12,347 nt of DNA. Origin: Clostridia bacterium. Its GTDB lineage: Bacteria; UBA6262; WVXT01; JAUXBS01. The notes under the pieces were generated by a model. That model saw only the letters and a list, made by a program, of their open reading frames with translations, searched no databases and was not told the DNA's origin. The position numbers were made by a program, and so were the translations under genes. Within the stretch, counting starts at the first letter, position 1, and each line of letters starts with the position of its first letter. The stretch covers positions 1 through 12,347 of the forward strand of contig JAUXDE010000049.1 of the NCBI GenBank assembly GCA_030618495.1. Reading direction: 5' to 3'. Positions 90 through 12,198 of this stretch are shown here, one piece after another.

Positions 90-530
90 ATGGAAAAGAC
101 TTTGATTATCATTAAACCCGATGCTCTTGTTTCCGGACTGGTGGGAAGGATTGTTTCCATAATAGAAAAGAAAGGATTTAAAATATCGGGCTTAAAGATG
201 ATTCGTTTGATGCCAAAGAAGGCAAGGGGGTTTTACAGGGTTCATAAGGGTATGCATTTTTATACGCCGCTTGTAAAATTTATGACGTCCAACCCTTGTT
301 TTGTAATGGTTGTCAGTGGGAGGAATGCTGTGAGGGGAATGAGGAAAATCATGGGAAACACCGACCCCGGTAAAGCTGAAAAGGGAACGATAAGGCGCTT
401 GTTTGCCGTTGATAACAGGCATAATGTCATACATGGTTCCGATTCCCCTGAAAACGCCGAAAAGGAAATCAGGTTCTTTTTCACGAATAATGAAGTGTTC
501 CGCTGGGAAAAGAAGAAGTACAAAATATGA
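90..530 (+). CDS. ndk: Nucleoside diphosphate kinase
   Basis: Transfers the gamma phosphate of ATP to other NDPs through a phosphohistidine, keeping cytoplasmic nucleotide pools balanced. The 146-residue product has the family length (about 140-150). Visible features are the N-terminal LIIIKPDAL strand with Lys9, the Kpn-loop and TDP region near residues 91-93, and the active-site signature NVIHGSDS with catalytic His115. The frame is open further upstream (first ATG at 27), but the family begins at MEKTLIIIKPDA. A purine-rich Shine-Dalgarno (GGAGA, 76-80) lies about 9 nt before ATG 90, so 90 is chosen. The stop overlaps the ackA start in ATGA, implying cotranscription and coupled translation. 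The usual GDF/ADF after TIR is RLF here, and the RPFF loop reads MHFY; both are variable positions in the family. Identity is very secure. Confidence 0.96.
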   Translation: MEKTLIIIKPDALVSGLVGRIVSIIEKKGFKISGLKMIRLMPKKARGFYRVHKGMHFYTPLVKFMTSNPCFVMVVSGRNAVRGMRKIMGNTDPGKAEKGTIRRLFAVDNRHNVIHGSDSPENAEKEIRFFFTNNEVFRWEKKKYKI

Positions 531-1747
531 AAATACTTGTCTTGAACTGCGGTAGTTCCTCCGTGAAGTATCAGTTCATTGATATGGACAGGGAAGAGGT
601 CATTGTAAAGGGCCTTGTTGACAGAATCGGAATGGAGGATGCGTTATTCACTTATGCCAGAGTTGTTGATAATACGGAAGTAAAGAGCGTTTTGCATATA
701 GGCAATCATGAAGAAGCCATCAGGCTTTTAATAAAAATGATGATAGAAGGGGATTACAGGATAATAAATGATAAATCCGAGATTGCCGCCGTGGGACACC
801 GGGTTGTTCACGGCGGTGAAAAGTTCAGCGGGGCGGTGCTTGTGGATAACAGGGTCAAGGAGGATATTTATGAATGTTTTGACCTGGCGCCCCTTCATAA
901 TCCCCACAATCTTAAGGGTATGGAGATTTGTGAGAAACTGCTTCAGGGTGTGCCTCAGGTTGCCGTTTTTGATACGGCTTTTCACCAGACAATGCCTTCT
1001 GATGCTTTTTTTTATGCGATACCGTACTATTTTTATGAGAAATACAAAGTTCGCCGTTACGGATTTCACGGTTCGTCCCACCAATATGTTGCCCACAGGG
1101 CTGCCTCGATGATGAAGAAAAAACTCAGGAGTTTAAAGGTGGTGACATGCCACCTGGGCAGCGGCGCAAGTATTACTGCGATAAAAAACGGGAAGTCGGT
1201 GGATACTTCAATGGGGTTTACCCCGCTTGAGGGGCTTGCCATGGGTACGCGGTGCGGGGACATTGATCCTGCCGTACCCCTGTACCTGATGGATGTAGAC
1301 GAAATTACTCTCAGAGAAATTAAGTCAATCCTTAACAAGCAGAGCGGGATTTATGGATTATCCGGTATAAGCAGTGACATGAGGGACATACTGAAGGAGA
1401 GAAAACGGGGAAACAAAAGAGCAAAACTTACGGTTGACGTATTCGTTTACAGGGTAAAAAAGTACATAGGCGCATACGCTTCTGCTATGAACGGGCTGGA
1501 TGTCCTGGTGTTTACCGCAGGGATAGGAGAGAACAGCTCCTATATAAGGGAATTGTGCTGCAGGGATATGGATTACCTGGGTATAGAAATTGACCGGAAG
1601 AGGAATAGGAAGGCAGAAGGAGTGGAATTACTGATAAGCTCCGGAAAATCAAAGGTTAGCGTATTTGCCATACCCACAAATGAAGAATTGGTTATTGCGC
1701 GTGAGGCTAATAGGATACTGCAAAATAAAAAGACTGTTTTTACTTGA
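527..1747 (+). CDS. ackA: Acetate kinase
   Basis: Interconverts acetyl phosphate plus ADP with acetate plus ATP in the cytoplasm, the substrate-level ATP step of acetate fermentation, or the activation step run backwards. At 406 residues it matches the family (about 400). It shows both ASKHA phosphate-binding regions: LNCGSSSVKYQ at 6-16 (Asn7) and the TSMGFTPLEG block near 227-236. Residues aligning with the Methanosarcina enzyme are Arg92, Asp149, His181 in GFHGSS, Arg242 in GTRCGDIDP, and Glu387 in the NEE near the end. The normally conserved Asn in HLGNG is Ser212 (HLGSG). It overlaps ndk by 4 nt with only a weak SD, suggesting translational coupling. Phosphotransacetylase is not encoded beside it. 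The rpmF promoter overlaps its stop codon. Propionate kinase is a less likely alternative. Confidence 0.96.
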   Translation: MKILVLNCGSSSVKYQFIDMDREEVIVKGLVDRIGMEDALFTYARVVDNTEVKSVLHIGNHEEAIRLLIKMMIEGDYRIINDKSEIAAVGHRVVHGGEKFSGAVLVDNRVKEDIYECFDLAPLHNPHNLKGMEICEKLLQGVPQVAVFDTAFHQTMPSDAFFYAIPYYFYEKYKVRRYGFHGSSHQYVAHRAASMMKKKLRSLKVVTCHLGSGASITAIKNGKSVDTSMGFTPLEGLAMGTRCGDIDPAVPLYLMDVDEITLREIKSILNKQSGIYGLSGISSDMRDILKERKRGNKRAKLTVDVFVYRVKKYIGAYASAMNGLDVLVFTAGIGENSSYIRELCCRDMDYLGIEIDRKRNRKAEGVELLISSGKSKVSVFAIPTNEELVIAREANRILQNKKTVFT

Positions 1748-1772
1748 CAAATCATAGTCCATCTTGTATTAT
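1744..1772 (+). promoter_or_regulatory. Sigma70-type promoter for the rpmF-fab operon
   Basis: TTGACA (1744-1749, perfect -35) and TATTAT (1767-1772, five of six at -10) are separated by exactly 17 bp. The -35 overlaps the TGA stop of ackA (1745-1747). Transcription would begin near 1779, leaving a roughly 30-nt leader before rpmF that contains an AAAGGA ribosome binding site (1799-1804). This is the best promoter match noticed in the window. It means the lipid cluster can be transcribed independently of ndk-ackA. Confidence 0.7.
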
Positions 1773-1810
1773 CCATGAATTGAAAAAATGTTTTAGGTAA
1801 AGGAATAGTT

Positions 1811-2020
1811 ATGGCGAATCCAAAAAGAAGACATTCAACATCAAGACAGAATAAACGCCGCGCGCAGTGGAAATTATCCGGTCCCCGGTTGGCTCCATGC
1901 GCCCAGTGCAAGCAACCCAGGTTGCCGCATTTCATGTGTAGTAACTGCGGTTATTATGATGGAAAAGAAATAGTGGATGTTGAGAAGATAAAAGAAAAGA
2001 AACTTAAGAAAAAAGCATAA
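1811..2020 (+). CDS. rpmF: Large ribosomal subunit protein L32
   Basis: Small basic protein of the 50S subunit. The 69-residue product opens with the family signature ANPKRRHSTSRQNKRRA. It carries a zinc ribbon of the C+ type with two CxxC pairs, Cys30/Cys33 and Cys43/Cys46, separated by nine residues. The tail is lysine-rich (KIKEKKLKKKA), as is common. AAAGGA at 1799-1804 lies 6 nt before the ATG. Heading plsX and the fab genes is the widespread bacterial arrangement. The DUF177/YceD gene that often precedes rpmF is absent; ackA sits directly upstream. The intact cysteines imply a zinc-bound form. Confidence 0.97.
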   Translation: MANPKRRHSTSRQNKRRAQWKLSGPRLAPCAQCKQPRLPHFMCSNCGYYDGKEIVDVEKIKEKKLKKKA

Positions 2021-2030
2021 CGGGGGAAAA

Positions 2031-3032
2031 ATGCGTATAGCCGTTGATGCGATGGGTGGAGATAATGCTCCCGGGTCTATTGTCCAGGGAGCTGTTCGGG
2101 CCGCAGGAGATTATAATTACAGTATAATTCTTGTCGGAGATGAAAGCAAAATAAAGAAGGAACTGAAAAAGTATACCACTGACTCGCTGCCGATTACAAT
2201 ATTGCATACATCGGAATATATCGGTGAGAGAGACTCTCCTTCTGTTGCTTTTCGTCAGAAAAAAAATGCGTCAGTCGTGCTCTGCGCCCGGCTGATTAAG
2301 GAGGGGAAAGCGGATGCGATGGTATCGGCCGGGAACTCCGGGGCAACGATGGCATCTGCCCTTGTCACCCTTCGCAGGCTGCCCGGAATATCAAGGCCTG
2401 CAATTGCATCGTTGTTACCCACAATAAAAGGTTCATGTGTTATCCTGGACGTTGGCGCCAATGTCGACTGCAAGCCCCAAAACCTTATGCAGTTTGCGGT
2501 GATGGGGGAAATTTACGTGAAACATATGATGGAAAAGGGAAAGCCCACGGTTGGACTCCTGAATCTAGGTAAAGAGGAAAACAAGGGAAACGAGCTTACT
2601 GCGAGCACTTATAAGTTGTTGAAGGAAAGCAAGGTTAATTTTATAGGTAATGTTGAAGGCAATGGTATACCAAAGGGAAAGGCTGATGTCGTTGTTTGTG
2701 ACGGTTTTGTGGGCAATGTTATACTGAAACTGACTGAAGGTGTTGGCGCGGCCGTGATGGAATGGTTCAAGGAGGATATAGGGAAAAAACCAACGGTAAA
2801 ACTTGTCAGGCTGCTGATCAGGAAAGCGCTGGCCGGTGTAAGGAAAAGAATCAATTATGATGAGTATGGCGGCGCCCCGTTACTGGGGATAAACGGCGTT
2901 TGCATAGTTTGCCATGGAATTTCCAACGCCAAGGCAATAAAGAATTCAATAGTAGTTGCCGCAAAGTTTGTTGAAGAAAAAATAAATGACCATATTGAAA
3001 AGGTAATTATACAGGATTATGAAAATGGATAA
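2031..3032 (+). CDS. plsX: Phosphate acyltransferase PlsX
   Basis: Converts acyl-ACP plus inorganic phosphate to acyl-phosphate plus ACP, the first committed step of the PlsX/PlsY route to phosphatidic acid; a peripheral membrane enzyme. The 333-residue length is typical. Seen in order: DAMGGDNAP at 6-14, SAGNSGA at 99-105, DVGAN at 140-144, NLGKEENKGN at 178-187, GFVGNVILK at 225-233, YGGAPLLGING at 279-289, and the closing HGISNAKAIKNSI from 295. It starts 10 nt after rpmF behind a GGGGGA ribosome site (2022-2027). Its end overlaps the fabH start. Identity is clear and no odd residues were noticed. Confidence 0.97.
   Translation: MRIAVDAMGGDNAPGSIVQGAVRAAGDYNYSIILVGDESKIKKELKKYTTDSLPITILHTSEYIGERDSPSVAFRQKKNASVVLCARLIKEGKADAMVSAGNSGATMASALVTLRRLPGISRPAIASLLPTIKGSCVILDVGANVDCKPQNLMQFAVMGEIYVKHMMEKGKPTVGLLNLGKEENKGNELTASTYKLLKESKVNFIGNVEGNGIPKGKADVVVCDGFVGNVILKLTEGVGAAVMEWFKEDIGKKPTVKLVRLLIRKALAGVRKRINYDEYGGAPLLGINGVCIVCHGISNAKAIKNSIVVAAKFVEEKINDHIEKVIIQDYENG
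3013..3016 (+). promoter_or_regulatory. Shine-Dalgarno that decides the fabH start
   Basis: AGGA at 3013-3016 lies inside the plsX 3' end. It is 8 nt from the ATG at 3025 but only 2 nt from the ATG at 3019 and 20 nt from the ATG at 3037. Spacing therefore favours 3025 as the fabH start, although family alignment alone would also allow 3037. Confidence 0.5.
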
Positions 3033-4011
3033 TGGCATGGTAAGAATAGTGGGTACCGGTTCCTATGTGCCCGAGAAAATACTAACGAATGCAGACCTGG
3101 AAAAGATAGTGGATACATCTGATGAATGGATTACAACGAGAAGCGGGATACGCGAAAGGCATATTGCAAGTGAAGATGAAGCTGCATCTGATTTGGGAGT
3201 GAAGGCTGCCCGGGAAGCGATAAAGGATGCTGGATTAGAACCTTCCGATGTGGATCTGATTATAGTTGCAACGATAACCCCTGATATGTTATTCCCGGCA
3301 ACAGCCTGTCTTATTGAGCGGGAATTAGGGGTAAAGAATGTTATTGCTTTTGACATAAATGCCGCGTGCAGCGGGTTTATATATGGAATATCGGTTGCCG
3401 AAATGTTCCTTAAGAATAATACCTGTAAAACAGCCCTGGTTATAGGAACGGAAGCCCTGTCAAAGATAATAAACTGGAAGGACAGGCAGACATGTGTTTT
3501 ACTTGGTGACGGCGCGGGAGCGGCTATATTGAGGAAAGAGAAAGGGAACAGGGGCATTCTGGCGTCTTATTTAAGCGCGGACGGCAGTTATTCCAACCTG
3601 CTGTTAATGCCGGGCGGGGGAACCAGGAATCCGGCAACGGTTGATACAATTGAGCAGGGGTTGCATTACTTTACGATGAGCGGCAATGAAACCTACAAGG
3701 TGGCAATACCCAAGTTATATGAATCTGCCCTGGAAGGATTGAAGCGCTGCGGGATGACCGTAGATGACGTAGATCTTTTCATTCCTCACCAGGCTAACAT
3801 AAGAATAATCCAGGCAGTGGCAAAGAAATTAGGCGTTTCGATGGAAAAGATGTTTGTAAACATTGATAAGTACGGGAATACTTCGGCGGCAACGATACCT
3901 ATTGCCCTTGATGAGGCAAAGCGCGCAGGCAGGATTAAAGAGGGCGATATCATCGAGTTTATCGGTTTCGGAGCGGGGTTTACCTGGGGTTCATGCGTGG
4001 TGCGCTGGTAA
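3025..4011 (+). CDS. fabH: Beta-ketoacyl-ACP synthase III
   Basis: Condenses an acyl-CoA primer (typically acetyl-CoA) with malonyl-ACP to start type II fatty acid synthesis in the cytoplasm. The 328-residue product has the FabH opening RIVGTGSYVPE and the TNADLEKIVDTSDEWITTRSGIRERHI type block. The thiolase-fold triad is Cys115 in AACSG, His255 in IPHQAN and Asn285 in GNTSAA. The end is the usual GAGFTWGSCVVRW. The start is placed by an AGGA site; ATGs at 3019 (two residues longer) and 3037 (four shorter) are alternatives. It overlaps plsX by 8 nt and is followed 6 nt later by fabD. Preference for straight or branched primers cannot be read from the sequence. Confidence 0.96.
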   Translation: MDNGMVRIVGTGSYVPEKILTNADLEKIVDTSDEWITTRSGIRERHIASEDEAASDLGVKAAREAIKDAGLEPSDVDLIIVATITPDMLFPATACLIERELGVKNVIAFDINAACSGFIYGISVAEMFLKNNTCKTALVIGTEALSKIINWKDRQTCVLLGDGAGAAILRKEKGNRGILASYLSADGSYSNLLLMPGGGTRNPATVDTIEQGLHYFTMSGNETYKVAIPKLYESALEGLKRCGMTVDDVDLFIPHQANIRIIQAVAKKLGVSMEKMFVNIDKYGNTSAATIPIALDEAKRAGRIKEGDIIEFIGFGAGFTWGSCVVRW

Positions 4012-4017
4012 AATAAT

Positions 4018-4980
4018 ATGAATACCAAGAAAATAGCATTTATTTTTCCGGGGCAGGGGTCCCAGTACCCGGGTATGGGCAGGGATCTGTTTGATAAATA
4101 TGAGCCTGCCAGAAGGATTTTTAATAAGGCATGTGAAGTTGTGGGTTTTGATTTAAAGGAAAAGGTTTTTAACGGGGCGGAAGAGGAACTGCAGAAAACC
4201 GAGATTGCCCAGCCTGCCATATTTACGGTATCAATGGCGTGCCTTGCTGTTCTAATTAACAAAGGGATCAATCCCGTCATGGTGGCGGGTCACAGTCTTG
4301 GCGAGTATACAGCTGTTGCGGCTGCGGGTGCCCTGGAGTTTTCCGAATGCCTGGCGCTTGTCATTAAAAGAGGCGAGTTTATCAGGGAAGCTTCTGAAAA
4401 AAACCCCGGAGGTATGGCTGCGATTATAGGGCTTGAAGCCACCCGGGTGAAGGAAGTGTGCAGCCGGGTAAATGCTCAGATAGGCGGGAATTCATCTGCA
4501 GTGGAGGCCGTGAATTTTAATTCCCCTATACAGGTTGTCGTTTCAGGCACTGCCGGCGGCTGTGAGAAGGCAGTTGAAATCGCAAAAGAGCTGGGAGCAA
4601 AAAGAGCCGCCGTCTTGAAGGTTTCCGGGCCGTTTCATCATAGTCAGTTTATGAACCCTGCCCGTGAAGGTTTGGCAGAAGAGCTTGAAAACCATGAAAT
4701 AAAAGATGCCCGAATACCCCTGGTTGCAAATTATACCGGCAATCAAGTTACTTCGGGAAAGGACATAAGAGAAGCTCTTGTTAATCAGATAAATAGCCCG
4801 GTTTTATGGGAAGATTCCGTAAAACGCATGATTGCCGAAGGTGTTAATGTATTTATAGAAGTGGGGCCGGGAAAAGTCCTTACCGGTCTTTTAAGAAGAA
4901 TATCAAAAGATGTTACGGGATTGAATATAGAGGATGAAAACAGTATTAAGAAGGCGCTGGGGATTCTAAATGAAGGATGA
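4018..4980 (+). CDS. fabD: Malonyl-CoA:ACP transacylase
   Basis: Moves malonyl from CoA to ACP, supplying the extender unit for FabH and FabF. The 320-residue protein has PGQGSQ (11-16), the nucleophile elbow GHSLGE with His92 and Ser93, Arg118 that binds the malonyl carboxylate, and His207 in GPFHHSQFM as the catalytic histidine. It is about ten residues longer than the E. coli enzyme, with some extra length near 150-165 (a Gly/Ser-rich stretch before the VNFNSP motif). The start follows the fabH stop by 6 nt with no clear Shine-Dalgarno, so translation is probably coupled. Identity is secure. Confidence 0.96.
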   Translation: MNTKKIAFIFPGQGSQYPGMGRDLFDKYEPARRIFNKACEVVGFDLKEKVFNGAEEELQKTEIAQPAIFTVSMACLAVLINKGINPVMVAGHSLGEYTAVAAAGALEFSECLALVIKRGEFIREASEKNPGGMAAIIGLEATRVKEVCSRVNAQIGGNSSAVEAVNFNSPIQVVVSGTAGGCEKAVEIAKELGAKRAAVLKVSGPFHHSQFMNPAREGLAEELENHEIKDARIPLVANYTGNQVTSGKDIREALVNQINSPVLWEDSVKRMIAEGVNVFIEVGPGKVLTGLLRRISKDVTGLNIEDENSIKKALGILNEG

Positions 4981-4981
4981 G

Positions 4982-4986
4982 AGGAG
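4982..4986 (+). promoter_or_regulatory. Shine-Dalgarno supporting the fabG start at 4998
   Basis: AGGAG at 4982-4986 lies 11 nt before ATG 4998. An in-frame ATG at 4977 overlaps the fabD stop (ATGA) but has AAGG directly abutting it, too close to act. The family N-terminus (M-x-L-x-x-K-V-A-x-V-T-G) also begins at 4998. Confidence 0.55.
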
Positions 4987-4997
4987 CCGGTTTTAAT

Positions 4998-5738
4998 ATG
5001 GATTTGAAAAATAAAGTTGCGGTTGTTACCGGTGCGGCTCAGGGGATAGGCAGGGCAATTACGTTAAACCTGGCTCAAAACGGAGCCAGTGTTGCCGTTT
5101 GCGATATTGACGAGAATCTGGCTGAGCAAACTGCCAGGGAGTTAAGGGAAACCGGTTTTAAGGCAATGGCCTGCGGACTGGATGTCACGCGGATTTCGTC
5201 TGTGGAAGAAATGGTAAAAAAAATACTTGACAAATTCGATAGAATTGATATATTGGTCAACAATGCAGGAATAACCCGCGATACTCTTTTGATCAGGATG
5301 AAAGATGAGGATTGGGACAGTGTGTTGAATGTCAATCTGAAAGGGGTATTTAACTGCACGAAAACAGTATCGAAAGTGATGATGAAGCAGAGAGTCGGCA
5401 GGATTGTGAACATTGCTTCGATAGTTGGGCTTATGGGTAATGCCGGACAGGCCAATTATTCTGCATCCAAGGGTGGTGTGATTGCGCTGACAAAGACATG
5501 CGCCAAGGAATTAGCAGGCAGGAACATTAACGTTAATGCGGTTGCCCCGGGTTTCATTCAGACAAGGATGACGGATAAATTATCGGATGAGATTAAAAAT
5601 AATTACGTAAAATTGATTCCGCTGGCAAAACTCGGTCAGCCGGAAGATGTAGCAAATACTGTATTATTTCTTGTTTCAGATTTATCCGATTATATAACAG
5701 GACAAGTACTAAAAGTTGATGGCGGAATGGTAATGTAA
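4998..5738 (+). CDS. fabG: 3-oxoacyl-ACP reductase, short-chain dehydrogenase
   Basis: Reduces 3-oxoacyl-ACP to 3-hydroxyacyl-ACP. The 246-residue product is a classical SDR: nucleotide loop TGAAQGIG (11-18), NNAG (88-91), Asn113, Ser141, Tyr154 and Lys158 (YSASK). The FabG hallmarks NNAGITRD, QANYSASK, APGFIQTRMT and the C-terminal ITGQVLKVDGGM are all present. The E. coli enzyme has Arg15 (TGASRGIG) to hold the NADPH phosphate. Here that position is Gln15, and strand beta2 ends in Asp36 (VCDID), a pattern usually linked to NAD(H). The start is chosen at 4998 by SD and alignment; 4977 would add seven residues. Position between fabD and acpP is standard. Cofactor preference is inference only. 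Confidence 0.95.
   Translation: MDLKNKVAVVTGAAQGIGRAITLNLAQNGASVAVCDIDENLAEQTARELRETGFKAMACGLDVTRISSVEEMVKKILDKFDRIDILVNNAGITRDTLLIRMKDEDWDSVLNVNLKGVFNCTKTVSKVMMKQRVGRIVNIASIVGLMGNAGQANYSASKGGVIALTKTCAKELAGRNINVNAVAPGFIQTRMTDKLSDEIKNNYVKLIPLAKLGQPEDVANTVLFLVSDLSDYITGQVLKVDGGMVM
5671..5698 (+). promoter_or_regulatory. Possible internal promoter for acpP within the fabG end
   Basis: TTGTTT (5671-5676) and TATAAC (5693-5698) are separated by 16 bp, in a noticeably AT-rich stretch of the fabG 3' end. The -10 matches five of six; the -35 only three of six. A start near 5705 would give a short acpP transcript ending at the hairpin at 6032-6061. The match is weak and could be chance. Confidence 0.25.
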
Positions 5739-5747
5739 ATTTAAAAG

Positions 5748-5753
5748 AGGAGG
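5748..5753 (+). promoter_or_regulatory. Strong acpP ribosome binding site
   Basis: A full AGGAGG (5748-5753, within AGAGGAGGA 5746-5754) sits 7 nt before the acpP ATG. It is among the strongest sites in the window, fitting the high cellular demand for ACP. Confidence 0.75.
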
Positions 5754-5760
5754 AATTTAA

Positions 5761-5997
5761 ATGGCAGCAGAAGACAAGGTAAAGGAAATTATTGTTGAAC
5801 AATTAGGAGTTGATCCCGCGGAAGTTACGTTGGAGGCTTCATTTATCAATGATCTTGGCGCGGACTCGCTTGATACGGTTGAGCTGGTTATGGCGCTTGA
5901 AGAGGAGTTCAATACGGAAATTGCTGATGAGGAGGCAGAAAAACTGGATACGGTCGGTAAAGTAGTTGAATATATAAAATCACATTCAAAACAATAA
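5761..5997 (+). CDS. acpP: Acyl carrier protein
   Basis: Carries growing acyl chains on a phosphopantetheine arm attached to Ser36 in the [12 protein letters not shown] motif. The 78-residue product is highly acidic and has the four-helix ACP pattern: helix I about 4-16, the acceptor Ser at the start of helix II (36-50, ending VMALEEEFN), and the C-terminal [10 protein letters not shown] helix. It lies 22 nt after fabG behind a strong ribosome site. A terminator-like hairpin follows, so ACP may be made in excess over FabF. Identity is unambiguous. Confidence 0.98.
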
Positions 5998-6031
5998 TAG
6001 TATATGATTAGAAACTAAATATAATGAACTT

Positions 6032-6061
6032 AAGACGCGGATTGGCAAAAATCCGCGTTTT
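6032..6061 (+). terminator. Intrinsic terminator-like hairpin between acpP and fabF
   Basis: ACGCGGATT (6035-6043) pairs perfectly with AATCCGCGT (6050-6058) around a 6-nt loop (GGCAAA). The stem extends to 12 bp as AAG (6032-6034) pairs with TTT (6059-6061), including one G-U. The T run is short (TTTT, 6058-6061) and then broken by C, so termination is probably partial. The fabF ribosome site GGAGG (6067-6071) lies just beyond the stem. Confidence 0.65.
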
Positions 6062-6078
6062 CTGTTGGAGGATGTGAA

Positions 6079-7320
6079 ATGCAACGTAGAGTTGTTATTA
6101 CGGGTATGGGTGTTTTATGTTCATTGGGTGCCGGAAATGATGAGTTCTGGAATGCGCTCATTGCCGGCAAATCGGGTATTGAGAGAATAACCTATTTTGA
6201 TTCTTCGGAGTACAACACCAGGATAGCAGGAGAATTAAAGAATTTTAACCCTGAAGACTATGTGGACGCCAAAAAGATCAACAGAACGGATAGGTTCGTT
6301 CAGTATGCTCTTGCCGCGGCAAAACTTTGTATGGAGGATTCAGGGCTTGATATTGAGAAGGAAGACAGGAACCGGATAGGCGTCATCGTCGGCTCAGGCA
6401 TCGGGGGGTTAACGAGTGTACAGGATGGGTGTAAGGTTCTTTTTGAAAAGGGGCCAAAGAAACTCAGCCCTTTTTTGATTCCCAAGATGATAATAAATAT
6501 GGCAGCAGGTGAAATTGCTATAACATACGGATTTAAGGGGCCTAACTTTGCCACGTGTACGGCCTGCGCTACAAGCAACCATGCAATCGGAGAAGCGATA
6601 AGGACTATTCGTTATGGAAGCGCTGATGTGATAGTTTCCGGCGGAGCGGAGGCTCCGGTCTCGCCAATAGGAATCGGCAGTTTCTGCGCGGCGAGGGCGT
6701 TGTCAAAACGTAATGATGATCCACATCGTGCCTCAAGGCCTTTTGATAAAAATCGTGACGGGTTCGTTATCGGTGAGGGCGCAGGAATTGTAATGCTTGA
6801 ATCTCTTGAGCATGCCAAAGCAAGGGGGGCGCGTATTTATGCCGAACTGTGCGGGTATGGCGCTACGGATGACGCATATCACATGACTGCTCCGTCTCCT
6901 GATGGTGAATCTGCTGCCAGGGCAATGTCAGATGCAATCGCATTTGCGGACGCAGTTCCTGAAGATGTGGATTATATCAATGCCCACGGCACGTCAACAT
7001 TACTGAATGATAAGTGTGAAACGGTTGCAATCAAGAAAGTCTTTGGAGACAGGGCGTATAAAATCCCTATTTCTTCCAATAAATCAATGATGGGGCATCT
7101 TCTGGGAGCGGCCGGAGCTGTTGAGTTGATATCAACAGCATTAACGATTACAAACGGTATTATTCCGCCTACGATTAATTATGAATCACCCGACCCTGAG
7201 TGCGACCTTGATTATGTTCCTAATAAAGCCAGGAAAAAAGAAGTAAACTTTGCTATTTCGAATTCCCTGGGTTTTGGCGGGCACAATGCCACAATTGCCA
7301 TTAAGAAATTCAAGGAATGA
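6079..7320 (+). CDS. fabF: Beta-ketoacyl-ACP synthase II
   Basis: Elongates acyl-ACP with malonyl-ACP. The 413-residue length equals that of E. coli FabF. The Cys-His-His triad is Cys163 in TACATS, His304 in NAHGTST and His341 in KSMMGHLLGAAG, with Lys336 also in place. RPFDKNRDGFVIGEGAG (221-237) and the C-terminal NSLGFGGHNA are typical. The usual Pro of GTSTPxND is Leu here (GTSTLLND), and the nucleophile motif has SN where GT is common (ACATSNHAIG); neither removes a catalytic residue. A GGAGG site (6067-6071) lies 7 nt before the ATG. It follows acpP after a hairpin and precedes rnc by 12 nt. Confidence 0.97.
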   Translation: MQRRVVITGMGVLCSLGAGNDEFWNALIAGKSGIERITYFDSSEYNTRIAGELKNFNPEDYVDAKKINRTDRFVQYALAAAKLCMEDSGLDIEKEDRNRIGVIVGSGIGGLTSVQDGCKVLFEKGPKKLSPFLIPKMIINMAAGEIAITYGFKGPNFATCTACATSNHAIGEAIRTIRYGSADVIVSGGAEAPVSPIGIGSFCAARALSKRNDDPHRASRPFDKNRDGFVIGEGAGIVMLESLEHAKARGARIYAELCGYGATDDAYHMTAPSPDGESAARAMSDAIAFADAVPEDVDYINAHGTSTLLNDKCETVAIKKVFGDRAYKIPISSNKSMMGHLLGAAGAVELISTALTITNGIIPPTINYESPDPECDLDYVPNKARKKEVNFAISNSLGFGGHNATIAIKKFKE

Positions 7321-7332
7321 GCAAGGTGTTAT

Positions 7333-8010
7333 ATGGCAACAGAACTGAAAAAATTTGAAGAGCATATAGGAGTAAGTTTTAAGAACAAGGCATTGCTGAA
7401 ACAAGCGCTGACCCATAGCTCTTACGCGTATGTCCGGGGATTAAAGGAAGACAATGAAAGGCTTGAGTTCCTTGGCGACAGCATTCTGGATATGGTAGTT
7501 TCCGATTATTTATTTGAAAGATACCCGGATTTGAATGAGGGTAAGTTGTCCAAAATGAAGTCCGGGCTGGTAAATAGAAACACCCTTTTCATATGGGCAA
7601 AAAGAATCGGGATACAGGATTTTATCATGCTCAGCAGGGAAGAGGAGTCGGCTGGCGGCAGGGATAAGAATTCCATTGTTGCCAATGCTTTTGAAGCTTT
7701 GATTGCGGCAATATACCGCGACCAGGGACTCATTACGGCGAAATATTTTATTCTTGGACAGATTTCCCAGCAGGAAGAACTGGAGAGGGCGGATTACAAG
7801 AGTTTGTTCCAGGAAATAATCCAAAAGAAGTACAAAATATTACCGGAATACAATGTTAAAACCGAATCCGGTCCTGACCATAAAAAATTATTTGAAATAG
7901 AAGTCAAAGTCAGGAATAGAATTTACGGCAAGGGTGTGGGTATGAGTAAGAAGAATGCGGAGCAGCAGGCGGCAAGAGAAGCTCTTGCAAAAATAAAGGC
8001 AATATACTAG
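7333..8010 (+). CDS. rnc: Ribonuclease III
   Basis: Cleaves double-stranded RNA during rRNA processing and mRNA turnover. The 225-residue protein has an endonuclease domain (about 5-150) with the signature NERLEFLGDSIL (41-52), giving Glu42, Glu45 and Asp49, plus Glu69 in NEGKLSK. A dsRNA-binding domain follows (about 154-223) with GPDHKKLFE and the closing SKKNAEQQAAREAL. In the second acidic motif the catalytic Glu121 is kept (FEALIAAIY), but the Asp equivalent to E. coli Asp114 is Asn118 (SIVANAFE). AAGG at 7323-7326 lies 6 nt before the ATG. Position after fabF is common across phyla. Product identity is secure; the effect of Asn118 is unknown. Confidence 0.95.
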   Translation: MATELKKFEEHIGVSFKNKALLKQALTHSSYAYVRGLKEDNERLEFLGDSILDMVVSDYLFERYPDLNEGKLSKMKSGLVNRNTLFIWAKRIGIQDFIMLSREEESAGGRDKNSIVANAFEALIAAIYRDQGLITAKYFILGQISQQEELERADYKSLFQEIIQKKYKILPEYNVKTESGPDHKKLFEIEVKVRNRIYGKGVGMSKKNAEQQAAREALAKIKAIY

Positions 8011-8074
8011 TAACACTACATTAGAGATTTAAGAAAAGCAAATACAAGGTATTGAGAAACGGAGGATATGAAAG

Positions 8075-9238
8075 ATGGACTACTTACTTACTGAAGAACA
8101 GAATATGATAAAAGAGTTGACTGCAAAAGTCGTACAGGAAAAGATAATACCGGTAAGAGAAGAACTGGACAGGAAGGGAGAGTTCCCCGCGGATATTATT
8201 AAGGCCATTGCTGCCGCTGACCTGTGCAGGGTTTATATTCCCGAGGAATACGAGGGCATGGGTGGGGGATGCCTGGATATTTGCCTGGTTGTTGAAGAGC
8301 TCAGCAAGGGATGCGCGGGTGTTGCTGTAACCTATGCAGCCAGTTCTTTAGGGGCATTCCCGATATTAATAGCTGGCAGTGAAGAACAGAAGAAGAAATA
8401 CCTGCCTCTTATAGCTTCCGGTGAGAAGCTTGCCGCTTTCGGCTTAACTGAACCGAATGCGGGGAGTGATGCCGGAGCCATTGAGACCACGGCGAAGCTT
8501 GAAGGAAATGAATGGGTTCTAAACGGCACCAAGGTGTTCATTACAAACGGCGGCGAAGCTGATATTTACGTGATAATCGTCATGACAAATAAAGAGAAGG
8601 GCGCGCGCGGCGCAAGCGCTATCATTGTCGAAAAGGGAACCCCGGGTTTTTCCTTCGGGAAGGAAGAAGACAAAATGGGGATTCGGTGTTCATCCACCAG
8701 GGAACTGATATTCGATAATTGCCGGGTTCCGAAGGAGAACCTTCTTGGCCGTGAGGGAACCGGATTCATTATTACGATGTCAAACTTTGATCATTCGCGT
8801 CCCGGTATAGGGGCTCAGGCTTTGGGAATTGCTGACGGCGCTTTAAGCGAAGCTGTGAAGTATGCCTGTGAAAGGGTCCAGTTTGGCAAGCCGATTTCGT
8901 CTTTCCAGGCTATACAGCATAAAATTGCCGATATTGCGCTGCAGGTAGAGGCTGCAAGGGCGCTGATTTATGCTGTTGCGAAAATGATAGACAGCGGGAA
9001 GCAGAAAAGTTTTTCCAAAGAAAGCGCAATGGCCAAGGTATTCCCTTCGGATATGGCGATGAAGGTTACGATAGAGGCGCTGCAGGTACTGGGCGGGTAC
9101 GGTTATATGAGGGATTACCCCATGGAAAAGTACGTGCGGGACGCCAAGATTACGCAGATATATGAAGGAACAAACGAGATTCAAAGGAACGTCATTGGGC
9201 TTGAATTGATAAAGGAAAATAAAAGGAAGAAGAAATGA
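8075..9238 (+). CDS. Acyl-CoA dehydrogenase, short-chain (Bcd-like)
   Basis: FAD enzyme that interconverts acyl-CoA and trans-2-enoyl-CoA, exchanging electrons with the Etf encoded next door. The 387-residue product has the helical N-terminal domain, the FAD/substrate signature FGLTEPNAGSDAG (122-134), the beta domain with NGTKVFITNGGEAD, the ERVQFGKPISSFQAIQHKIAD block (266-286), and the C-terminal QVLGGYGYMRDYPMEK. The catalytic base should be Glu364 in QIYEGTNEIQR, the short/medium-chain position. GGAGG (8061-8065) is 9 nt before the ATG; another ATG at 8068 opens only a tiny ORF. The stop overlaps etfB in ATGA. Butyryl-CoA dehydrogenase is the best guess, but related enzymes act on other short or aryl enoyl-CoAs, so no symbol is given. 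Confidence 0.9.
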   Translation: MDYLLTEEQNMIKELTAKVVQEKIIPVREELDRKGEFPADIIKAIAAADLCRVYIPEEYEGMGGGCLDICLVVEELSKGCAGVAVTYAASSLGAFPILIAGSEEQKKKYLPLIASGEKLAAFGLTEPNAGSDAGAIETTAKLEGNEWVLNGTKVFITNGGEADIYVIIVMTNKEKGARGASAIIVEKGTPGFSFGKEEDKMGIRCSSTRELIFDNCRVPKENLLGREGTGFIITMSNFDHSRPGIGAQALGIADGALSEAVKYACERVQFGKPISSFQAIQHKIADIALQVEAARALIYAVAKMIDSGKQKSFSKESAMAKVFPSDMAMKVTIEALQVLGGYGYMRDYPMEKYVRDAKITQIYEGTNEIQRNVIGLELIKENKRKKK

Positions 9239-10026
9239 ATGTAATTGTCTGTATCAAGCAGGTACCTGAGACAACCGAGGTAAAGATTAATCCTGAAAAC
9301 AACACCCTCATCCGGGAGGGTGTGACCAGTATAATAAATCCCTTCGATATGTACGCAATTGAAGAGGGGCTAAGGATTCGTGAGGCAAAAGGCGGGAAGG
9401 TGACCGTGATTACCATGGGCCCTCCGCAGGCGGAATCAGCCCTGCGGCAGTGTATAGCGCTGGGGGTGGATGAGGTAGCGCTTCTTTCCGACCGAGCTTT
9501 TGCCGGTTCGGACACGCTTGCCACATCGTATACGCTTTCCTGCGCCATAAAGAAAATACAGGATTATGATCTTATTATCTGCGGCAAACAGGCATCTGAC
9601 GGTGATACCGCGCAGGTCGGGCCCGGAATTGCGCAGCAGCTTAATATACCGTTTATTACTTATGTCAAGAAGATAGAGGACATTCCGGAAGACGGGAAAT
9701 CCATCAAGGTTGAGAAGATGGTAGATGACGGTTTTGAAGTCAGGAAAATGTTCCTGCCCGCGCTGATTACCGTGGTTAAAGAAATCAATGAACCGAGGCT
9801 GGAGTCGCTGAGGGGCAAACTGGGAGCAAAAAAAGCGCAGATTCCCGTCTGGACGTCTGCTGATATGGAAATGGATACCCAACGCCTGGGGCTGGACGGT
9901 TCGCCTACACAGGTAATAAAGATATTTACTCCTCCCCCGAGGAATTCCGGGGAAATATATGAAGGGGATACGGATAAAACGGTTAATAAACTTTTTGAGG
10001 AATTAAGAGAGAATAAAATAGTATGA
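9235..10026 (+). CDS. etfB: Electron transfer flavoprotein beta subunit, bifurcating type
   Basis: Beta subunit of the FAD-containing Etf partner of the acyl-CoA dehydrogenase. The 263-residue product opens with VIVCIKQVPETTEVKI, followed by TLIREGVTSIINPFD, VTVITMGPP, DRAFAGSDTLATS (about 86-98) and GKQASDGDTAQVGPGIAQQL. The last block and the LRGKLGAKKAQIPVW stretch resemble EtfB proteins of electron-bifurcating Bcd-Etf and caffeyl-CoA reductase systems, in which EtfB binds NADH and the bifurcating FAD. AGGA at 9224-9227 is 7 nt before the ATG. It overlaps both neighbours by 4 nt, implying tightly coupled, stoichiometric synthesis. Assignment to the bifurcating group rests on remembered motifs, not on a computed tree. 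Confidence 0.92.
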   Translation: MNVIVCIKQVPETTEVKINPENNTLIREGVTSIINPFDMYAIEEGLRIREAKGGKVTVITMGPPQAESALRQCIALGVDEVALLSDRAFAGSDTLATSYTLSCAIKKIQDYDLIICGKQASDGDTAQVGPGIAQQLNIPFITYVKKIEDIPEDGKSIKVEKMVDDGFEVRKMFLPALITVVKEINEPRLESLRGKLGAKKAQIPVWTSADMEMDTQRLGLDGSPTQVIKIFTPPPRNSGEIYEGDTDKTVNKLFEELRENKIV

Positions 10027-11216
10027 GTATAAAAGTAATTACTGATAAATGTAATGGTTGTAAATTCTGCATGTCAGCCTGTCCCCTTGACGCCATTAAG
10101 GTTGAGAATAAAAAGGCTGCTATTGAACTGGAAAAATGCAACCTTTGCAGCGCCTGTATAAGTGCATGTAAATCTAATGCCATTGTTATTGAAAAGAAAG
10201 AAATCAAGGTAGTAAATAAAGAGGATTACAGGGGTGTGTGGGTTTTTGCTGAACAAAAAAACGGTGAGATAGATTCGGTTTCATACGAGTTACTGGGAGA
10301 GGGCAGGAAACTGGCGGATAAACTCGGGGAAGAACTCTCAGCGGTTCTTGTCGGAGCTGACATAAGAAAAGAAGCGGAGAAGCTCATATGTTACGGGGCG
10401 GATAAGGTTTACGTGGTCGATAATCCGATGCTTAAGGAATACCAGGATTCGTCGTATTCAAAGGCGCTTTTCAGCCTTATCCAGAGGCACAAACCGTCGA
10501 TACTTCTTGGCGGGGCAACGACCATAGGCCGTTCACTCCTGCCGAGACTTGCCGTAATGCTTCCCACCGGCTTAACGGCTGACTGCACGGGGCTTGATAT
10601 AGATGATGAAAAAAAGCTTCTTCTCCAGACCCGCCCGGCTTTCGGCGGAAATATTATGGCTACAATTATATGCCCTGATTACAGGCCGCAGATGGCTACT
10701 GTCCGCCCGAGGGTTATGAAGAAATTGGCGGAGGAACCTTCAAGAAAGGGTGAGATTATTGATGAAGATGTCCGGTTTATTAGAAGGGACATAATGACGG
10801 AAATCGTGAATGTGGTCAAGGATACGACGATACATGTAAACCTGCAGGATGCCGAAATCATCGTTTCAGGGGGCAGGGGGTTGAAAGCGCCCGAGAACTT
10901 TAAAATAATACGCGAACTTGCCGATGCGCTCGGGGGAGCCGTCGGGTCCTCAAGGGCTGCGGTTGACGCAGGATGGATACCCTATTCCCACCAGGTCGGA
11001 CAGACGGGAAAGACGGTTGCTCCTAAAATATATTTTGCCTGCGGCATATCGGGGGCAATACAGCACCAGGTAGGGATGAGGACATCGGATGTTATTATCG
11101 CGATAAACAAAGACCCGCAGGCGCCTATCTTCCAGATTGCTTCTTATGGAATCGTTGGAGACCTTTTCCAGGTTGTACCTGCCCTGACAAAGAAATTCAA
11201 AGAAGTATCGAATTAA
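10023..11216 (+). CDS. etfA: Electron transfer flavoprotein alpha subunit with N-terminal 2[4Fe-4S] ferredoxin domain
   Basis: Alpha subunit of the Etf, extended at the N-terminus. Residues 1-60 hold two ferredoxin motifs: Cys10, 13, 16, 20 (CNGCKFCMSACP) and Cys39, 42, 45, 49 (CNLCSACISACK, lacking the usual final Pro). Residues from about 68 form the Etf alpha body: GVWVFAEQKNGEI, PSILLGGATTIGRSLLPRLA, a TRPAFGGNIMATI block near 203-215, and the C-terminal FAD site GSSRAAVDAGWIP (308-320), HQVGQTGKT and YFACGISGAIQHQVGM. At 397 residues it exceeds standard EtfA (about 310-340) by the ferredoxin module. CarE of Acetobacterium woodii has the same layout. It overlaps etfB by 4 nt with only a weak ribosome site. 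The added clusters suggest electron transfer to or from a low-potential partner. Confidence 0.92.
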   Translation: MSIKVITDKCNGCKFCMSACPLDAIKVENKKAAIELEKCNLCSACISACKSNAIVIEKKEIKVVNKEDYRGVWVFAEQKNGEIDSVSYELLGEGRKLADKLGEELSAVLVGADIRKEAEKLICYGADKVYVVDNPMLKEYQDSSYSKALFSLIQRHKPSILLGGATTIGRSLLPRLAVMLPTGLTADCTGLDIDDEKKLLLQTRPAFGGNIMATIICPDYRPQMATVRPRVMKKLAEEPSRKGEIIDEDVRFIRRDIMTEIVNVVKDTTIHVNLQDAEIIVSGGRGLKAPENFKIIRELADALGGAVGSSRAAVDAGWIPYSHQVGQTGKTVAPKIYFACGISGAIQHQVGMRTSDVIIAINKDPQAPIFQIASYGIVGDLFQVVPALTKKFKEVSN

Positions 11217-11250: not shown

Positions 11251-12198
11251 TCACAGCTGTTTTGCAAACTTTGCCAGCAGGTTCTTATCCCACCAGCCTT
11301 TGTCCGATTCTTCTTTCAGGATACCCAGAGCCTTTTCCTTATCCATGCCCTTACGGTAGGGCCTGTCGGATGTTAATGCGTCGTAAACGTCAACAATGGC
11401 CATTATTCTTGCCGGTACCGGGACTTCTTCTCCACTGAGCCCGTCAGGGTAACCGGAACCGTCAAGTTTTTCATGATGATGTTTTATGATGGGTATCAAC
11501 GGGCTTATTGAATTAAGAGGTTTGCATATTTTTTCCCCGATAACGGGATGCTGCCTGATTTTATCAAATTCTTCGTCCGTGAGCCTGCCCGGTTTGTTCA
11601 GTATGGAATCGGATACTCCTATTTTGCCGATATCATGCAGTATTCCTCCCATGTAGAGGGTTTGCTGTTCATCTTCGGGAAGGCCCGCTTCCTTTGCAAG
11701 GCTTGAGGCGAATGCCGCGACCCTGTCCACGTGGCCTTTTGTGTATGCGTCCTTTGCCTCAACTGCTCTTGCCAGGGCTATTATGACTTGTTCAGCATCG
11801 TCCAGCTGGTCGCTGAACTGCTTCATCTTGAGAAGTGACCTTAATCTTGCCAGGAGTTCTTCCTTATCAAAGGGGGAACTTACAAAATCATCTGAACCAA
11901 CTTCAATTCCTCTTATTCTATCCTTCTTTTCATTCAGGGCGGTTACCATAACAACGGGGATGAGCCGCGTTTCCCTGTTTTCTTTCAGGGTTGAACAGAC
12001 TTCGAATCCATCCATGCCGGGCATCATTATGTCAAGTAGTATCAGGTCGGGAGGATTGTTTTTTACTTTGTCAAGGGCCTCAATACCGTCACAGGCAAAT
12101 TCAATCCTGTAGTTTTCCTTTTCAAGGTATGCCATGAGTATTTCCCTGTTCTGTTCGCTGTCATCAACAATCAAAATCAACGGTTTATCTTTTTGCAT
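11251..12198 (-). CDS. Response regulator with REC and HD-GYP domains
   Basis: Predicted two-component output protein that hydrolyses cyclic di-GMP. The 315-residue product has a REC domain at about 6-122: acidic pair Asp12/Asp13, phosphoacceptor Asp56 in LILLDIMMPG, and Thr86 in MVTA. The conserved Lys before Pro is Ser108 (FVSSPFD). A short linker helix (about 123-140) leads to an HD-GYP domain at about 140-315. Its metal and active-site residues look complete: His156 (GHVDR), His188/Asp189 with Lys192 (HDIGK), His217, His241/His242 and Asp270, plus GYP at 249-251 in DGSGYPDG. AAGGAG (12212-12207) lies 8 nt before the ATG. It resembles RpfG in domain layout. No cognate kinase or GGDEF gene is in the window. 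The signal and the regulated process are unknown. Confidence 0.93.
   Translation of the reverse strand: MQKDKPLILIVDDSEQNREILMAYLEKENYRIEFACDGIEALDKVKNNPPDLILLDIMMPGMDGFEVCSTLKENRETRLIPVVMVTALNEKKDRIRGIEVGSDDFVSSPFDKEELLARLRSLLKMKQFSDQLDDAEQVIIALARAVEAKDAYTKGHVDRVAAFASSLAKEAGLPEDEQQTLYMGGILHDIGKIGVSDSILNKPGRLTDEEFDKIRQHPVIGEKICKPLNSISPLIPIIKHHHEKLDGSGYPDGLSGEEVPVPARIMAIVDVYDALTSDRPYRKGMDKEKALGILKEESDKGWWDKNLLAKFAKQL

Follow-up and report, generated by a model that had tools for sequence, protein, structure and literature searches.

An acyl-CoA dehydrogenase and bifurcating-type Etf at the end of a fatty acid synthesis operon: a probable enoyl-ACP reductase

What is the task of an acyl-CoA dehydrogenase that is encoded together with the genes for fatty acid synthesis? 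This question is raised by a window of 12,347 nucleotides, the whole stretch of DNA analysed here (positions 1 to 12,347 of contig JAUXDE010000049.1, assembly GCA_030618495.1, Clostridia bacterium), in which acd, etfB and etfA encode a flavoprotein of the acyl-CoA dehydrogenase (ACAD) family, Acd, and both subunits of an electron transfer flavoprotein, EtfB and EtfA. An earlier note had taken the substrate to be possibly an unusual enoyl-CoA, a suggestion that is probably half right: the evidence points to an enoyl group, but on acyl carrier protein (ACP) rather than in a CoA ester. Thus, Acd-EtfAB would be the enoyl-ACP reductase in the type II fatty acid synthesis (FAS-II) of this bacterium, a reading to which we give a probability of about 0.78.

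The three genes are complete and each overlaps the next by 4 nt, as had been noted earlier. They close a run of 13 co-directional genes (93-11216) in the order ndk-ackA-rpmF-plsX-fabH-fabD-fabG-acpP-fabF-rnc-acd-etfB-etfA (Table 1). Because only 64 nt separate rnc from acd and no terminator-like site was found there on the + strand, acd-etfB-etfA is most simply regarded as the tail of a FAS-II operon. The promoter-like and terminator-like scans performed no better than on shuffled sequences, and are thus given little weight; a search against Rfam produced no match. Genes for crotonase, thiolase and 3-hydroxyacyl-CoA dehydrogenase do not adjoin the set, in agreement with the earlier note, where the adjoining FAS-II operon went unreported.

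The genome that contains the window is 98% complete and appears to lack only one step of the FAS-II cycle. The model PF13561, for short-chain dehydrogenases/reductases (SDRs), finds two proteins in it, FabG and a second SDR in a locus of sugar-acid type, so that this search reveals no FabI or FabL. A search for FabV was also negative, and nothing comes near the cut-off of the FabK model; the two proteins matched by that model were rejected as FabK and are FabX-like (see below). FabZ, in contrast, is present, in a frame of ~450 residues. FabZ frames of ~440-480 aa, at G000:C152:3743-4111 and in genomes of the same order and of Endomicrobia, probably represent fusions with LpxC. The window genome encodes a single acyl-CoA dehydrogenase and a single Etf pair, and Acd-EtfAB, encoded with the FAS-II genes, would fill the only missing step according to both the operon and the co-occurrence data.

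The same pattern is observed in other genomes. A set of 44 genomes in which acd or etfBA is linked to FAS genes was compared with 28 unrelated control genomes, using thresholds chosen by the analyst (≥80 bits for FabI/FabL and ≥230 bits for FabK-like proteins). The searches extended to four further genomes (G020, G032, G034 and G039), which are not counted in the strict FAS-linked set because their acd does not adjoin FAS genes. No FabI/FabL, FabK-like or FabV match was found in 32 of the 44 FAS-linked genomes, compared with 8 of the 28 controls (Fisher p = 3e-4). When only strong reductase matches are counted, 2/44 FAS-linked genomes have one vs. 18/28 controls (p = 4e-8). Gaps in metagenome-assembled genomes (MAGs) cannot explain this absence, because 42 of these 44 genomes do contain FabZ and every one contains an acyl-CoA dehydrogenase. 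There is exactly one such dehydrogenase in 32 of the FAS-linked genomes. In 16, one dehydrogenase and FabZ occur together with no crotonase, no tested enoyl-ACP reductase and no relative of FabX or of the nitronate monooxygenase (NMO) family; these include three Endomicrobia, one with a genome of 0.8 Mb.

The association with FAS genes is not restricted to one lineage. When GTDB genomes were scanned with six aligned Acds, 80 loci were retrieved, and FAS genes adjoin acd in about half of them, many of the remaining loci being on short contigs. Close relatives of the operon's Acd are found, inside or adjoining a FAS operon, in at least nine named phyla; the hosts are Omnitrophota, Elusimicrobiota (Endomicrobium), Nitrospirota, Thermodesulfobacteriota, Myxococcota, Margulisiibacteriota, Planctomycetota, Chloroflexota and MAGs of Pseudomonadota. 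Several gene orders are observed, such as fabF-(rnc)-acd-etfB-etfA, fabH-acd-etfB-etfA-fabG, plsX-acd-fabD and acd-etfB-etfA-fabD. The operon ends in the same way in two other genomes of the window's own order, G003 and G004. G035, from outside this order, has a phosphotransbutyrylase-like gene and then fabH after acd (contig C21, L172:4136-7224), and its etfBA closes a separate plsX-fabD-fabG-acpP-fabF operon (L050:8441-10437). The 0.8 Mb genome of an Endomicrobiellum endosymbiont retains the whole operon despite severe gene loss. A recurrence of this kind in differing gene orders is hard to explain otherwise than by a function shared with FAS. In viral contigs a single distant Acd was found, and plasmids contained no Acd above 60% identity. 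The Planctomycetota acd match (L107:8794-10111) is in two overlapping pieces, which suggests a frameshift or an assembly error.

The family of Acd would also be compatible with a catabolic role. The earlier description of a Bcd-like dehydrogenase was accurate: Pfam finds three acyl-CoA dehydrogenase domains, the closest solved structures are Bcds, and the best PDB match (421 bits) is chain 5ol2_C, the Bcd of Clostridioides difficile Bcd-EtfAB (PDB 5OL2). The two systems share an ACAD with a bifurcating EtfAB, the DGDTAQVGP block and the active-site motif YEGT, whose E364 is the expected catalytic base of Acd, the proposed catalytic subunit. Since the Etf subunits are closest to CarDE, and ackA lies upstream in the same operon, the set might be a fermentative bifurcating Bcd-Etf that reduces crotonyl-CoA to butyryl-CoA, or acts on another enoyl-CoA, and is found beside fab genes by chance. 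Nevertheless, chance does not produce an association with fab genes in at least nine phyla and in varied gene orders. Crotonase, which the earlier note had proposed to look for across the genome, is absent from the window genome (ECH_1, E ≤ 1e-10) and from 28/44 FAS-linked genomes, so that these have no known source of crotonyl-CoA; thiolase and 3-hydroxyacyl-CoA dehydrogenase were not searched for genome-wide. A role in butyrate formation or β-oxidation is disfavoured because of this absence of crotonase.

Phylogeny further separates Acd from the Bcds. A quick maximum-likelihood tree was built from 103 Acds; in it, the FAS-linked ones form one clade (SH-aLRT 96) that does not cluster with the three solved Bcds and also excludes the other ACADs of the same genomes; as the sequences were picked by similarity to the window Acd, the tree speaks to the separation from Bcd and not to the full family. 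Bcds have a one-residue insertion in the loop that matches the acyl pocket of medium-chain ACADs, whereas the window Acd and its clade lack it. A further trait acquired by the clade is a group of conserved positive charges (residues 28, 226, 303 and 315). These two features would fit longer, ACP-bound substrates, although this is only suggestive. The range of chain lengths that the enzyme would accept is likewise a prediction. Altogether, a catabolic Bcd-Etf that lies beside fab genes by accident is very improbable. Membership in FAS operons of many phyla, the lack of crotonase and the missing usual reductases are the reasons why enoyl-ACP, rather than a CoA ester, is the predicted substrate.

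Some observations do weigh against Acd-EtfAB as the enoyl-ACP reductase. Most surveyed genomes are draft MAGs, Acd relatives outside FAS operons exist, and the additional positive charges may reflect ancestry only. The reductase survey covered FabI/FabL, FabK, FabV and FabX/NMO relatives; FabMG, an enoyl-ACP reductase without sequence likeness to the others (PMC9260719), was not searched for. A FabI/FabL-like SDR accompanies the FAS-linked set in 10 FAS-linked genomes, mostly of Desulfobulbaceae and relatives, and FabK-like proteins of ~240-310 bits are present in two others. Because such FabI/FabL-like and FabK-like proteins coexist with it in some genomes, the FAS-linked set is not the sole reductase candidate everywhere, and in Desulfobulbaceae and relatives its role is possibly redundant. 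The matches from this group have 30-36% identity to E. coli FabI, and an assignment as FabI was considered; the two that were inspected carry the FabL-like motif SSLGATRAIENYTTVGASKAAL. FabL-like SDRs with a YTTVGASKAAL motif (L174:2739-3494 and L175:1790-2647) co-occur with acd-etfBA of FAS operons, mostly in Desulfobulbaceae, which would give such genomes two possible enoyl-ACP reductases.

A last point on this side concerns the two FabX-like proteins encoded in the window genome. FabX has the same fold as FabK (PMC8626469), and the FabX-like proteins, members of the NMO family, could be the reductase, leaving to Acd-Etf a side task in lipid metabolism, such as desaturation of acyl-ACP by running as a dehydrogenase, or the supply of a short-chain primer for FabH. 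However, of the 32 FAS-linked genomes that lack a canonical reductase, 22 have no FabX/NMO match (E ≤ 1e-25), among them the three Endomicrobia as well as G003 and G004 from the window's order. No FabX-like gene was found in the FAS-linked loci examined, and the FabX of H. pylori acts as a dehydrogenase (PMC8626469). A FabX-like reductase is possible in the window genome but not in the 22 genomes without a relative of it, and this alternative is, overall, improbable. Both FabX-like proteins (L036:1462-2541 on contig C33 and L035:1504-2583 on contig C26) have a cysteine-rich C-terminal motif and belong to the family of PDB 7e1q (E ~1e-79 for the first); they may serve in the anaerobic formation of unsaturated fatty acids, passing electrons to some acceptor.

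If Acd-EtfAB is the enoyl-ACP reductase, the next question is how it obtains and distributes electrons. By Pfam, EtfB has an ETF domain, and EtfA has ETF and ETF_alpha domains preceded by two Fer4 stretches (residues 3-55). The DGDTAQVGP block that the earlier note had recognised in EtfB lies at D122-G-D-T-A-Q-V-G-P130; this motif of the bifurcating FAD (b-FAD) is absent from non-bifurcating Etfs (PMC9232219). EtfB also contains the NAD-site motif RxFxG (R87-A-F-A-G91) and the coupling motif SPT (S223-P-T225). In EtfA, Arg204, the residue expected to contact N5 of b-FAD, lies in TRPAFGG and aligns in register with IRPAFGG of LctC and with CarE. The eight cysteines previously assigned to two [4Fe-4S] clusters are found as C10xxC13xxC16xxxC20 and C39xxC42xxC45xxxC49, forming an N-terminal ferredoxin domain as in CarE. 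Among FAS-linked sets and their near relatives, DGDTAQVGP is exact in 34/36 EtfB, the remaining two having DGDTGQVGP, and 34/35 EtfA carry the two cluster motifs. Every motif that mutagenesis in a 2022 eLife study found important for the bifurcating FAD and for NAD (PMC9232219) is present in the window Etf. The bifurcating type proposed by the earlier note is thus supported, the conservation of motifs being support for bifurcation and not proof of it.

The closest known system for the Etf is CarCDE of Acetobacterium woodii (PDB 6FAH), in which an ACAD partner is also co-encoded. CarE is the best PDB match of EtfA (473 bits, over the full length including the ferredoxin domain, which is an addition compared with Bcd-EtfAB), and CarD that of EtfB (257 bits). 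In contrast, Acd is far closer to Bcd than to CarC (296 bits), and CarCDE belongs to a caffeate respiration locus rather than to a FAS-II operon. Among NCBIfam models, those for acryloyl-CoA reductase give the top match to both Acd and EtfA, but neither match reaches the model's cut-off, so no equivalog name can be given to either protein.

Electron transfer without bifurcation would also be compatible with an enoyl-ACP reductase. In this variant, which overlaps with the favoured reading, the ferredoxin domain would be an inlet for electrons from reduced ferredoxin, or NADH would act alone. The direction and coupling of the reaction cannot be read from sequence. On the other hand, the motifs for b-FAD, NAD and coupling are all kept, as is Arg204 of EtfA, and the reduction of an enoyl group by NADH provides sufficient driving force for bifurcation. 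The Etf of C. propionicum is non-bifurcating and yet closely related to bifurcating ones (PMC9232219). A non-bifurcating Acd-EtfAB is unlikely, although it deserves more consideration than the two alternatives discussed above.

In the bifurcating enoyl-ACP reductase that is favoured here, NADH, the probable electron donor, would reduce the EtfB flavin, b-FAD. One electron would then reach the Acd flavin by way of the mobile α-FAD of EtfA. Once this has happened twice, Acd would convert trans-2-enoyl-ACP, supplied by FabH/FabF, FabG and FabZ, to saturated acyl-ACP. The second electron from each NADH would most likely cross the two [4Fe-4S] clusters of EtfA and arrive at ferredoxin, in the manner of Bcd-EtfAB and CarCDE, so that reduced ferredoxin would conserve some of the free energy released in making fatty acids. 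Given an enoyl-ACP reductase role, such coupling seems rather probable. The reduced ferredoxin might be used by either of two clusters of the window genome, a formate dehydrogenase cluster of NuoEF type and a second NuoE/NuoF-like cluster. In the former (L170:2878-7868), the catalytic subunit of a formate dehydrogenase is encoded together with NuoE/NuoF-like proteins; the latter (L171:1826-5605) also encodes a short NuoG-like protein and one of ferredoxin type. Both are probable modules for NAD- and ferredoxin-linked electron transfer. No match of the size of RnfC was found among the Complex1_51K matches in the window genome.

Acd-EtfAB would share its reaction and its place in the FAS cycle with FabI, FabL and FabV (SDR family) and with FabK (NMO family). 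The folds, however, are unrelated: by Pfam, Acd is an ACAD and neither an SDR nor an NMO, and it would operate through FAD/Etf chemistry, with possible coupling to ferredoxin. There are precedents for an ACAD fold that acts on phosphopantetheinyl carrier proteins, such as RedW (L-prolyl-[PCP] dehydrogenase in NCBIfam) and MbtN (acyl-ACP dehydrogenase), whose models match Acd below threshold. Unlike the reductase role proposed for Acd in FAS-II, these enzymes oxidise their substrates and belong to secondary metabolism.

A 2022 review of enoyl-ACP reductases lists FabI, FabL, FabL2, FabI2, FabMG, FabV and FabK, that is, only SDR-type and FabK-type enzymes, and contains neither the term "acyl-CoA dehydrogenase" nor "flavoprotein" (PMC9260719). 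Similarly, the Etf-based kinds in a 2018 survey of bifurcating enzymes are Bcd, Car, Ldh and Fix (PMC6085437). No proposal of an ACAD-Etf as enoyl-ACP reductase was found in the open-access literature; subscription papers and preprints were outside this search, and a prior mention is possible. As far as checked, the protein family is known and the enoyl-ACP reductase role is new.

The features of the window are collected in Table 1. The HD-GYP gene that neighbours etfA is also kept in a congener (G001, L039).

Table 1. Genes of the window, with positions and basis of assignment
Feature	Position	Strand	Basis or remark
ndk, nucleoside diphosphate kinase	93..530	+	PF00334; opens the co-directional run
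ackA, acetate kinase	527..1747	+	Assigned from sequence; homologues in the same place in Endomicrobium operons
rpmF, ribosomal protein L32	1811..2020	+	Small open reading frame (ORF) scan; homologues sit before plsX in related operons
plsX	2031..3032	+	ORF and comparison with related operons
fabH	3019..4011	+	PF08541, PF08545
fabD	4018..4980	+	ORF and comparison with related operons
fabG, SDR	4977..5738	+	One of two PF13561 proteins in the whole genome
acpP, acyl carrier protein	5761..5997	+	Small-ORF scan; DSLD phosphopantetheine site
fabF	6079..7320	+	PF00109, PF02801
rnc, ribonuclease III	7333..8010	+	PF14622, PF00035
acd, ACAD-family flavoprotein, 387 aa	8075..9238	+	Pfam; the genome's only PF00441 protein
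etfB, bifurcating-type Etf beta, 263 aa	9235..10026	+	DGDTAQVGP, RxFxG, SPT
etfA, Etf alpha with N-terminal 2x[4Fe-4S] ferredoxin domain (residues ~3-55), 397 aa	10023..11216	+	Pfam, motifs
HD-GYP response regulator	11251-12198	-	Convergent with etfA

The reduction of enoyl-ACP, which closes each round of fatty acid elongation, is central to the synthesis of bacterial lipids, and its enzyme is a major drug target. Tentatively, and with a chance just short of even, the sets described here may constitute a widespread new class of enoyl-ACP reductase in anaerobic and uncultured phyla, an NADH-bifurcating ACAD-EtfAB through which lipid synthesis yields reduced ferredoxin. If true, this would explain how fatty acids are made in many candidate-phylum and symbiotic anaerobes that have no known reductase, and would correct annotations that assign butyrate production or β-oxidation to such organisms. 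It would also tie biosynthesis to energy conservation via reduced ferredoxin.

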